The translations under genes and the position numbers were made by a program. Source: Thiotrichales bacterium (lineage in GTDB: Bacteria > Pseudomonadota > Gammaproteobacteria > GCF-002020875). From it: a stretch of DNA of 38,155 nucleotides. The notes beneath the pieces were generated by a model. That model was not told where the DNA came from. It did not search any database and was given only the letters and a program-made list of their open reading frames with translations. The stretch is from positions 1 to 38,155 of the forward strand of contig JABHVM010000003.1 of the NCBI GenBank assembly GCA_018658305.1, read 5' to 3'. Numbering within the stretch: the stretch's first letter is position 1; the number at the start of each line of letters is the position of its first letter. This document shows, piece after piece, positions 13,072-18,925 of the stretch.

Positions 13072-13860
13072 CTACATATCCTGCGCCAATCTAAACCCCA
13101 AACTATAGTACCCATATCCTGGATGAAATGATTCACGATTTGATACCCTCAACCCTAACTCTGACTGATCCCAGCCACCGCCACGAACCACTCTAAAAAT
13201 TCCTCCCTGCTGCATTGATCCATCTCTAGGTGTTCTATCATAATCTTTAAAGCGGTCAGCAACCCACTCTGCGACATTTCCAGCAGTGTCATACAGCCCA
13301 AATTGATTTGGCTCCATTGAAGCCACGCGCTGGGTTGAGGTAAATGTCCACTTAGAGGGATCGAAACCACCTTTCCACCAGTAGTCTCCTGCTGTTCCTG
13401 CCCTAGCAGAATATTCCCACTCAGCCTCAGTTGGAAGGCGATATTTATGCTGCGGTTTAAGTTTTTGATTAAGCCATGAGATAAATTCAGCCGCCCTATT
13501 CCAAGATATATTAATCACTGGATATTGCCCTCTTCCCCACCCCTCATCTTCTGGTGACTTCTCTCCCGTATCGTCTAAATAGAGTTCGTATATCTCAAAA
13601 GTTAGTTCAGTTCTTCCGATCTTAAACTTTGGAATAGAGACTCTATGCAGAGGAAGCTCATCCTCTACACCGCGGCCGACAGCATCTCCCATCATAAACT
13701 CACCAGCTATGATCTCTACCATCTGGCTATCCACTAGAGTGCGTAGATCTCTCATATTTATATCCTGCTCACTTGAATCTTGAACATATTCAGCAGCACT
13801 TACCCTTACAACAGAGGATGATATTAACAGGATAAGAGAGAGCAATAATATGGTTTTCAT
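13072..13860 (-). CDS. SUMF1/formylglycine-generating-enzyme-domain secreted protein
   Basis: Start MKTILLLSLILLISSSVVRVSA (signal peptide) at 13860. EFMMGDAVGRGVEDELPLHRVSIPKFKIGRTELT, RLPTEAEWEYSARAG, GLYDTAGNVAEWVADRF, RVVRGGGWD. Confidence 0.9.
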   Translation of the reverse strand: MKTILLLSLILLISSSVVRVSAAEYVQDSSEQDINMRDLRTLVDSQMVEIIAGEFMMGDAVGRGVEDELPLHRVSIPKFKIGRTELTFEIYELYLDDTGEKSPEDEGWGRGQYPVINISWNRAAEFISWLNQKLKPQHKYRLPTEAEWEYSARAGTAGDYWWKGGFDPSKWTFTSTQRVASMEPNQFGLYDTAGNVAEWVADRFKDYDRTPRDGSMQQGGIFRVVRGGGWDQSELGLRVSNRESFHPGYGYYSLGFRLAQDM

Positions 13861-15197
13861 AAGGCAAACTCTACCATTTTTTCTCGGTAGAGTCGGTAAC
13901 AATTAAGAATTAACCACCCCATCCATCCGAAATAGAGAAATAGAGTCACACCTAGTAGATAGATTCCCAATGGAGTAACTAACACTGCAATCCAACCGAG
14001 AAGAGTAGTTAGAAATAACCAAAATAGAATTTCAACTTTATGGGTCGGAAGAATCTGAAATAGATTAGGAATCTTAGATAAATTTGCAAAATTAGGGGGA
14101 GAGCCTTCGCCATCATGGTTAAAACAGGATTTAGTGATCTGCTGTTGAAGGTGCAGAAACACTAAAAATGGCGCAATCTTCATTAAGGTCCCAGATAGCA
14201 TTGGAAGAAGTAACAGAAAAATCCAAACAACGGCAACACCATCAAAAACAGATGTAGCAGAGAGGGGAGTATAGAGTGATATAGTTGTAAATATTGCAGT
14301 AGTAAGAGAAGCCACAACCATTACTACTATAGCAAAACGCCAAAAGTAGATAGTCACATCCAACACTTTCCTGCGCCGCTGCGACATGATATTAAAAGCA
14401 GTAATAGAGTAAATTATAAACCCTAAAGCTGCCAAGATAAGAGCAATAGAGCTCATTAAGTTCCACTCCAACATCCACCCCACTCCCCAACCTAAAAGTG
14501 TAACTGCAACTATTGGAACTAAATATTTACGAACTGGATCTGGAAAATCTGGAGTAACATGAAACATAGGGATCATCTGAAAACTTATTACCATTAACAG
14601 CAGTGTAAACCACCCACCCAACCCCCACACTAAATGAACTAAAGTTAGGTGACGATTAACTCCATACTCTGCTCCTCCCCAACCAAATAAAAGAGTAGTT
14701 CCTATAACTGCCATAGCAGTTAGAAACAGGGCTGGATAGCGTAGCAACTTTATCGTATCTGATGGATTAGAGAGGGAGAAGAGACAAAACAGTATCAATG
14801 CAATATATGGAATCAGTGCTGCCGCTAACAGAATCGCTGCCACAACCATTAAGTAATTATTCACTAGAATAAATGCTACAAAATAGAGTAGAGTTCCTAA
14901 ACTCAATATTATATGCATCCAAGTAGCAACTCTATTCTGCTGCGGGATCTGAACTCCCCCTACTACTGGCAAAATTTGAAACAGCACCCCAACTACTGAG
15001 ATAAAGAGAACTCCTATATTAACTAGATGAAGCGTTCCAATGAGCGATGGGTTCCATCTACTACTAAATAGCTCTGGACCAAAAAGAAGAAGTGAGAGTG
15101 AAAACAGAACCCCAAAAATAGGAGCAGTTAAAAAAAATCTGAACGGGGTGAGAATAGGTGGTGCACTCTCGACTGATAGCGAAGCTGTGCTTATCAT
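13857..15197 (-). CDS. Polytopic membrane protein with conserved-looking His residues (NnrS / heme-copper-oxidase-subunit-I-like)
   Basis: 446 aa with about 12 hydrophobic segments. Intramembrane His in GTLHLVNIGVLF, TWMHIILSLG, LTLVHLVWGLGGW, IPMFHV. Specific family not certain. Confidence 0.7.
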   Translation of the reverse strand: MISTASLSVESAPPILTPFRFFLTAPIFGVLFSLSLLLFGPELFSSRWNPSLIGTLHLVNIGVLFISVVGVLFQILPVVGGVQIPQQNRVATWMHIILSLGTLLYFVAFILVNNYLMVVAAILLAAALIPYIALILFCLFSLSNPSDTIKLLRYPALFLTAMAVIGTTLLFGWGGAEYGVNRHLTLVHLVWGLGGWFTLLLMVISFQMIPMFHVTPDFPDPVRKYLVPIVAVTLLGWGVGWMLEWNLMSSIALILAALGFIIYSITAFNIMSQRRRKVLDVTIYFWRFAIVVMVVASLTTAIFTTISLYTPLSATSVFDGVAVVWIFLLLLPMLSGTLMKIAPFLVFLHLQQQITKSCFNHDGEGSPPNFANLSKIPNLFQILPTHKVEILFWLFLTTLLGWIAVLVTPLGIYLLGVTLFLYFGWMGWLILNCYRLYREKMVEFAL

Positions 15198-15475
15198 ATA
15201 AATGAATCAACTCTATCCTGAGCTAATACATCACCTTTTTTATAGATTATAATTTCGTATGGAGCATCACCATCTAGATATAGTTTGTATATAAAGCCCA
15301 TTTCAGCAACGACTGCGTAGAGTGGAACAGGTTCCATACGGTGTAACATTCTCACATACTCACCCGGTTCTATTTTTGGTAACAGTTCTAAAATTCGCTC
15401 CATCGGCTCAGGAGGAGGTAGCTCCTGCACATCACACACTATCTCTCCAAAACTTTCCTCTCCAGAATTAACCAC
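15194..15475 (-). CDS. DUF2249-domain protein
   Basis: 93 aa, DVQELPPPEPMERILELLPKIEPGEYVRMLHRMEPVPLYAVVAEMGF; ATGA start/stop overlap with the downstream gene. Confidence 0.85.
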   Translation of the reverse strand: MVNSGEESFGEIVCDVQELPPPEPMERILELLPKIEPGEYVRMLHRMEPVPLYAVVAEMGFIYKLYLDGDAPYEIIIYKKGDVLAQDRVDSFI

Positions 15476-15478
15476 TAG

Positions 15479-15925
15479 CTACGCCTCCAATTTCATCCTA
15501 GCCATAACTGAATCAGTATCTGGCAAAGATCTATCTATCATTGGATATAACATCTGTTCCTCCTTCATATTGTGCTGCTGCATCATAATCATTAAAGTGT
15601 CCGCAACTCCTAACGCCTGCTCCGCATCACGACTCTCTACAGCTTGTTGCAAATTTTGAAGTAGCGAACGCATCTGCTCATGCTCCATTCGCATCACCAT
15701 AGTAGGACCTTGAGCACTACCTGTCGCCTCTTCAAAAGCTGAAAAGAGAATTTCCTCTTCACTCGCAAAATGGTTTAAAGTATTTCCATTAAAAAGTTCC
15801 CAGGAGTTTTGCGCCACTTCCCAACCTCCTGACGATATTGCACCTTCCATATCAGAAAAGTAACCATCACATTCACGATGATGATTCGTCATAATTGTTG
15901 CGACCGATATTGCTGTTGTTTCCAT
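15479..15925 (-). CDS. Hemerythrin HHE-domain protein
   Basis: 148 aa with metal-ligand-like H/E motifs: NHHRECDGYF, HFASEEEILFSAFEE, MRMEHEQMRSLL, MQQHNMKEEQMLYPMID. Confidence 0.92.
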   Translation of the reverse strand: METTAISVATIMTNHHRECDGYFSDMEGAISSGGWEVAQNSWELFNGNTLNHFASEEEILFSAFEEATGSAQGPTMVMRMEHEQMRSLLQNLQQAVESRDAEQALGVADTLMIMMQQHNMKEEQMLYPMIDRSLPDTDSVMARMKLEA

Positions 15926-15980: not shown

Positions 15981-16021
15981 TACTATACTCTGATAAATAA
16001 CAACTTAAATGATGTACATCA
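15981..16021 (-). promoter_or_regulatory. Candidate Crp/Fnr-family-dependent promoter for the hemerythrin operon
   Basis: Perfect palindrome TGATGTACATCA (16010-16021; TGAT-N4-ATCA core). On the minus strand it is followed 28 nt from its centre by a -10-like TATAGT. AAGGATATATATG RBS/start at 15925. Confidence 0.6.
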
Positions 16022-16046
16022 CGCACAGATAAAAACAGACCATACT

Positions 16047-18361: not shown

Positions 18362-18925
18362 ATGGAAAGATTTTTATTTATATACAACCTACTTGCTGCC
18401 CTTAGTGATGGACGGCTATTTCGTAGTCTATTCTCTACTCTACTAAGAGTTCTATCTGTTGCACTTATTATATATCTAATAGGGGATACTATAGAGAGAT
18501 GGCAAGAGATATATTACGGTAATGAGATAACCACACTATTCATTGGTGAGATGATTCGCATCCTATCTGGATATGCCGTTATTCACCTAATGCTATTAAG
18601 AGCCGCGGAGATTCACACCCTCTCCAACCCTCTCTATACTCTATCTGAAGTGATAACCGTAATAATCAGACTCAGCGGTGAACTCCTATTTATAATAACC
18701 CTAAGCATCACTATAACGACTACCCTTCAACTATTAGGGTTAAATGTTCAACTTCTCATTCCTGAGTTAGCAAAAATTATCAGCCCTCTCCTAGAGCATA
18801 AAAGTGCACTATGGATTGGAGTAGCTGGAACTGGGCTTAGTTTACTCTTTCTTGTTGCTGGTCACTTTGCTAGTGAATTACTAGAGATGATTTTACGACT
18901 CTCTAGAAATTCCGAACCGAGATAA
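18362..18925 (+). CDS. Hypothetical membrane protein
   Basis: 187 aa ORF with about 4 hydrophobic segments, followed by an end-to-end dnaQ on the other strand; no recognised family. Confidence 0.65.
   Translation: MERFLFIYNLLAALSDGRLFRSLFSTLLRVLSVALIIYLIGDTIERWQEIYYGNEITTLFIGEMIRILSGYAVIHLMLLRAAEIHTLSNPLYTLSEVITVIIRLSGELLFIITLSITITTTLQLLGLNVQLLIPELAKIISPLLEHKSALWIGVAGTGLSLLFLVAGHFASELLEMILRLSRNSEPR

Follow-up and report, generated by a model that had tools for sequence, protein, structure and literature searches.

The window considered here, the whole 38,155-nucleotide stretch of DNA that was analysed, carries four ORFs between positions 13072 and 15925, read from the sequence and all on the minus strand. 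These ORFs, together with two candidate promoter elements upstream of the first gene, are as follows:

15479..15925, minus strand: stand-alone hemerythrin-like di-iron protein, 148 aa (Pfam PF01814, 2.4e-21)
15194..15475, minus strand: small DUF2249 (COG4309-type) protein, 93 aa, GTG start (Pfam PF10006, 1e-11)
13857..15197, minus strand: 12-TM membrane protein of heme-copper-oxidase fold, 446 aa (AlphaFold2, Foldseek and conservation)
13072..13860, minus strand: exported, Cys-free FGE/PvdO-like (SUMF1) protein (PF03781, 1.7e-40), coupled to the others in the source window only
16009..16022, minus strand: candidate FNR/DNR-type box GTGATGTACATCAT, core TGAT-N4-ATCA, 8/10 matches to TTGAT-N4-ATCAA
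15982..15987, minus strand: candidate -10 element TATAGT, 21 nt from the box, which is class II FNR spacing

The hemerythrin and DUF2249 genes are separated by a gap of 3 bp (15476-15478). ATGA overlaps join the DUF2249 gene to the membrane protein gene (15197-15194) and the latter to the SUMF1-like gene (13860-13857), so that the four closely packed ORFs described in the original prediction are indeed present. The Pfam check of each product proposed there was run and matched three of them to the Hemerythrin, DUF2249 and FGE-sulfatase families, with the membrane protein left without a family. The flanks, with genes named from sequence, are of housekeeping type, namely a divergent TatD-like gene upstream and an MTAP-like gene downstream. 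No nir gene occurs among the identified ORFs of the window, and neither nir nor nor genes adjoin the first three genes here. Elsewhere in the window, a GmrSD-type (type IV) restriction endonuclease-like gene lies at the edge (327-2060) amid housekeeping genes, and positions 18362-18925 encode a 187-aa membrane protein without a Pfam match that is conserved with its neighbouring genes in congeners.

Related loci were gathered by a search with the membrane protein, after which gene order was read around each match. In 54 of 58 distinct loci, a hemerythrin gene lies upstream of the membrane protein gene, co-directional and at a distance of <=2.5 kb. Of the first 39 loci, 23 have a DUF2249 gene in the intervening space, and most Arcobacter and Sulfurimonas loci (Campylobacterota) lack one. 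The conserved unit is a trio, with the hemerythrin and the membrane protein as its core pair. A conserved quartet had been anticipated; the first three genes do recur together in this way, but the fourth does not, as no SUMF1-like gene was seen beside any other copy of the membrane protein gene in the loci inspected, those of the same genus included. The trio or pair occurs in Gammaproteobacteria, former betaproteobacteria, Campylobacterota and others, with carriers that include Arcobacter, Malaciobacter, Sulfurimonas, Rhodocyclus, Accumulibacter, Colwellia, Parachitinimonas and many MAGs. Within the host's class, the module is carried by about 12% of sampled genomes (28/229). The divergence of the hemerythrin-like protein is correlated with that of the membrane protein (Mantel r 0.675, 0/999 permutations), a correlation to which common species ancestry also contributes. 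No plasmid-borne copies of the module were found, and beyond nir, nor and dnr, the recurrent neighbours are just lineage-specific housekeeping genes around the loci. Candidate hemerythrin-DUF2249 fusions were rejected, the long ORFs being start over-extensions, with no fusion in any locus checked. Besides a full trio, genome G004 has a second membrane protein gene (L050, 12018-13322) that stands alone, with neither a hemerythrin nor a DUF2249 gene, and that lies directly downstream of a cd1-type gene and nirJ.

We take the SUMF1-like gene to be a passenger specific to this lineage, a local addition outside the conserved module. An FGE-like gene is present in 21 of 56 relatives, elsewhere in the genome. 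The window protein (262 aa, with a signal-peptide-like N-terminus) matches PvdO (5hha, 3.1e-22) and has its fold and its export in common with FGE/SUMF1, PvdO and NirV-like proteins. Its translation contains zero Cys, however, and the active-site cysteine pair of catalytic FGE is thus missing. NirV is encoded with nirK or another nir gene; here there is no nir ORF in the window and, at the threshold used, no NirK in the host genome. A four-gene system with the SUMF1-like protein as a functional NirV-like partner could draw on the exported FGE fold and on the ATGA overlap with the membrane protein gene, but the absence of this gene from the side of every other copy, even within the genus, and the lack of cysteine in its product make such a system extremely improbable.

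No Pfam or NCBIfam model matches the membrane protein. Its AlphaFold2 model (pLDDT 94.1) has 12 TM helices, and the first Foldseek match is CcoN of cbb3 oxidase, with a TM score of 0.67-0.70 to the query and about 10% identity. An NnrS model built from the sequences of relatives (pLDDT 95.7) likewise has cbb3 CcoN as its top match. The suspected likeness to subunit I of the heme-copper oxidases (HCO) and to NnrS is therefore real at the level of fold. Profile comparison shows a weak resemblance to NorB, CcoN, aa3 subunit I and NnrS, each scoring above all shuffles (0/40), and the PF00115 (COX1) cut-off is not reached, the best E-value being 0.0011 in 4 of 36 members, with no match for the window protein. 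The label 'His-rich', on the other hand, was overstated. Only two histidines, H57 in helix II and H188 in helix VI, are invariant (58/58 sequences); G62, Q74 and P210-M211-F212 are likewise invariant, and K340 is kept in 56/57, H349 in 51/57 and H95 in 48/58. An internal 4-TM repeat makes H57 and H188 equivalent (self profile comparison, prob 89%, E 2e-6).

With the heme and metal ligands assigned in CcoN as background, the fold, the internal 4-TM repeat and a helix-start His motif are common to CcoN, NorB and the membrane protein, whereas the high-spin heme ligand, the CuB/FeB ligands and the helix-X His are missing from the latter. As to register, hmmsearch pairs H57 with the helix-X His of CcoN and H188 with its helix-II His, a circular permutation, and the NorB profile aligns sequentially; both registers are possible owing to the pseudo-threefold symmetry of the fold. 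Because the canonical His set of oxidases and NO reductases (helices II, VI, VII and X) is absent, we infer, as the simplest arrangement, a predicted bis-His heme between helices II and VI. The protein could thus hold one heme, with no oxidase or NO-reductase active site. Charged loops, such as RRRK at 274-277, suggest that the N-terminus is cytoplasmic, which would bring both histidines near the periplasmic face. It might be supposed that the membrane protein is the enzyme itself, an HCO-fold NO reductase or NO-consuming oxidoreductase that has gone unrecognised, all the more so in a host that has a NirS-type gene and in which the HCO matches are one aa3-like and one cbb3-like protein only. 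Yet about six His are needed by HCO and NO reductases, against two that are invariant here, the helix-X His is missing at its usual place, and norB is often present in carriers too, all of which renders a catalytic role very unlikely.

In the comparison with NnrS, none of 36 family members matches PF05940 at E 0.1. The motifs that are invariant or nearly so in 22 NnrS sequences, W-H-x-H-E-M in helix II, a His in helix X and G-H-T-G-R, are not found in the membrane protein, whose helix II has the single H57. Membership of NnrS by profile was rejected, since hhalign gave E 0.46 at first and E 0.011 with cleaner alignments (above all 40 shuffles), which is too weak. Common to both are the 12-TM HCO fold, the NO/denitrification regulons, a full-length collinear, if weak, profile match, and the motifs FR(P)FFL and VIP(M/F)F; the helix-VI His occurs in the membrane protein but not in NnrS. 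As both models match CcoN first, the two are cousins in fold. NnrS is co-resident with the membrane protein in some genomes, and the latter is therefore not simply its replacement. At most it would work as an accessory of NnrS type, and it is not a member of NnrS.

For the hemerythrin-like family, the top PDB match of the profile is YtfE (3.9e-11), with which its conserved stretches align. The predicted di-iron ligands H16, H52, E56, H82, H118 and E122 are invariant in the aligned family, those of YtfE being His84, His129, Glu133, His160, His204 and Glu208 (PMC9052748); Ralstonia NorA is a related di-iron NO-protection protein (PMC9045102). The six ligands and the NO link are thus held in common with YtfE/RIC/NorA (DnrN). 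Unlike these, the hemerythrin-like protein is only about 148 aa long, lacks the N-terminal ScdA_N domain (PF01814 is the sole Pfam family above cut-off) and has an extra Cys19 (codon 15869-15871), three residues past the first ligand His and invariant in all aligned members. The NCBIfam RIC equivalog cut-offs are missed, at 27-40 bits vs 204-254.

The DUF2249 protein scores 44.9 bits with PF10006, above the gathering cut-off of 29.5, and is a single short domain, unfused to hemerythrin; COG4309 is the same family. Proteins of this kind have a recurrent denitrification or NO-regulon link. For instance, COG4309 shares transcripts with nor genes and is predicted to belong to the NnrR/NsrR regulon (PMC1274295), haloarchaeal denitrification induces DUF2249 proteins (PMC11218638), and the DUF2249 proteins DrpA and DrpB of Thermus affect nar expression (PMC6282519).

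A link of the module as a whole to NO and denitrification, raised in the original prediction, is well supported by co-occurrence with nir and nor genes, by physical linkage, by FNR/DNR boxes and by the nar and NirS-type genes of the host. Co-occurrence was assessed across 229 genomes of the host's class (28 carriers vs 201 non-carriers) with Fisher tests that ignore phylogeny, on an uneven sampling. Genes of cd1 type are present in 17/28 carriers vs 26/201 others (p 1e-7), norB in 14/28 vs 35/201 (p 3e-4), and any nir or nor gene in 23/28 vs 52/201 (p 1e-8), which leaves five carriers without any nir/nor gene searched. NirK shows no association in the 229 genomes (p 0.66). Ten of 29 copies lie <=5 kb from norB or a cd1 gene. 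Copies are divergent from norBEQD-type genes in four genomes (G031, G073, G141 and G176), close to norB in two (G072 and G209), and placed after nirDLJ/cd1, with a dnr-like gene present, in three (G066, G151 and G019).

The regulatory signal is of the same tenor. An FNR/DNR box (TTGAT-N4-ATCAA), counted at >=9/10 matches, precedes 30/52 hemerythrin genes, compared with 50/829 ORFs of the control set (p 1e-20). Its centre is 58-72 bp from the start in 23 of the 30, and a TATAAT-like element often follows about 22 nt past the box, as seen by eye at several loci. The window's own box (8/10) is degenerate, has its centre some 90 bp ahead of the hemerythrin gene and, taken alone, is not significant (p about 0.28); four same-genus orthologues (L042-L045) have a perfect 10/10 box at 71-93 bp.

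FNR boxes answer low O2 too, and the box does not tell low O2 from NO. The trio might then serve microaerobic respiration, an O2-binding hemerythrin and a CcoN-like protein assisting the cbb3 oxidase or sensing O2. The closest solved fold is indeed CcoN, cbb3 is enriched in carriers (26/28 vs 113/201 others), and the Mhr hemerythrin of P. aeruginosa supports microoxic growth (PMC12403760). When the genomes are stratified, however, nir/nor still separates carriers within cbb3-positive genomes (22/26 vs 48/113, p 1e-4), whereas cbb3 gives no association with the module within nir/nor-positive genomes; cbb3 or O2 as the primary link failed this test and was rejected. The copies are physically linked to norB, nir and dnr genes, and no cco cluster was recognised beside those inspected, whose flanks are only partly annotated. 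The di-iron ligands, moreover, are of YtfE type, with four His and two Glu in place of the five His of bacteriohemerythrins. A role centred on O2 is accordingly unlikely, and of the suggested 'NO- or O2-sensing/detoxifying' complex, the NO side stands while the O2 side is the weaker, cbb3 adding nothing beyond nir/nor.

A sensory role has also been weighed, in which the membrane heme protein would detect NO or redox state and pass the signal on to transcription factors by way of DUF2249 and hemerythrin, in the manner suggested for DrpA/DrpB of Thermus. The effect of the latter on nar expression (PMC6282519), the membrane protein without a catalytic site and the dnr genes that adjoin several copies are compatible with such a relay. 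None of the three proteins has an output domain, though, DUF2249 is often missing and the hemerythrin keeps its full di-iron ligand set, so that we regard signalling as quite unlikely.

On balance, the trio is rather likely to be an FNR/DNR-controlled accessory module of denitrifying or nitrite-reducing bacteria, which handles the NO of nitrite reductase through di-iron capture, a membrane heme and a DUF2249 adaptor, and so protects iron cofactors; it probably guards cells against toxic NO. Nitrite reductase would make the NO that the module handles. The hemerythrin-like protein, as a cytoplasmic di-iron protein of YtfE/NorA type, would capture and perhaps slowly reduce it. The 12-TM protein, with one putative low-spin heme b between helix II (H57) and helix VI (H188) near the periplasmic side, may join the di-iron protein at the membrane, either binding NO or delivering electrons, as is thought for NnrS. 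DUF2249 would be a small, dispensable cytoplasmic adaptor. The outcome would be protected iron cofactors, not respiratory NO reduction. What the analysis shows is the association of the genes, the regulatory signal, the fold and the conserved ligands; heme binding, NO chemistry and this division of labour are what we infer for the trio.

More tentatively, the membrane protein may represent an undescribed HCO-fold family that has lost the catalytic centre and retains one rotated, predicted bis-His heme site, in which helices II and VI would equate by pseudo-threefold symmetry with the helix II/X low-spin site of oxidases, and which serves in a dedicated NO-handling complex with the di-iron protein and DUF2249 across Pseudomonadota and Campylobacterota; we hold this wider proposal to be possible, if somewhat short of probable. 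Each part belongs to a known kind, yet both the membrane family and the gene combination seem to be unnamed. The trio appears to be an as yet undescribed NO-accessory module, of the NnrS/RIC kind. A literature search, made largely outside the subscription journals, found no paper on the trio or the membrane family, and this, with the lack of a Pfam or NCBIfam model, agrees with the earlier suspicion of an undescribed system. NO is a toxic denitrification intermediate and controls N2O release, and current annotations cannot reveal a module whose membrane protein lacks a family model. DUF2249, long linked to denitrification without a role, gains two concrete partners, and the HCO fold would gain a further non-catalytic branch besides NnrS.

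In the host itself, one contig (C68 of G000; L172, L173) carries, mostly named from sequence, narGHJI-like genes, narK-like transporters and a small cytochrome c, as well as a NirS-type gene that is truncated where the contig ends, together with genes of nirC-like, NirF-like (cd1) and CRP/FNR type. NnrS and a NorB-type HCO were not found in the host assembly, which is 95%-complete. With nar and a NirS-type gene, and with NorB and NnrS undetected, the host may release NO or use other NO sinks. Two further HCO-related proteins were seen among the relatives. One, a COX1-like protein of about 455 aa (L050, 16330-17694; L105-L108), scores at or just below the Pfam cut-off and, in G019 and several congeners, is encoded close to the nir cluster; it is perhaps another HCO-fold denitrification accessory. 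The other is a COX1-family protein of about 580 aa (E about 1e-64) found at G002:C16:27226, G003:C1:2099, G004:C50:3481 and G019:C10:431132, where its gene sometimes shares a contig with nor or nir genes.
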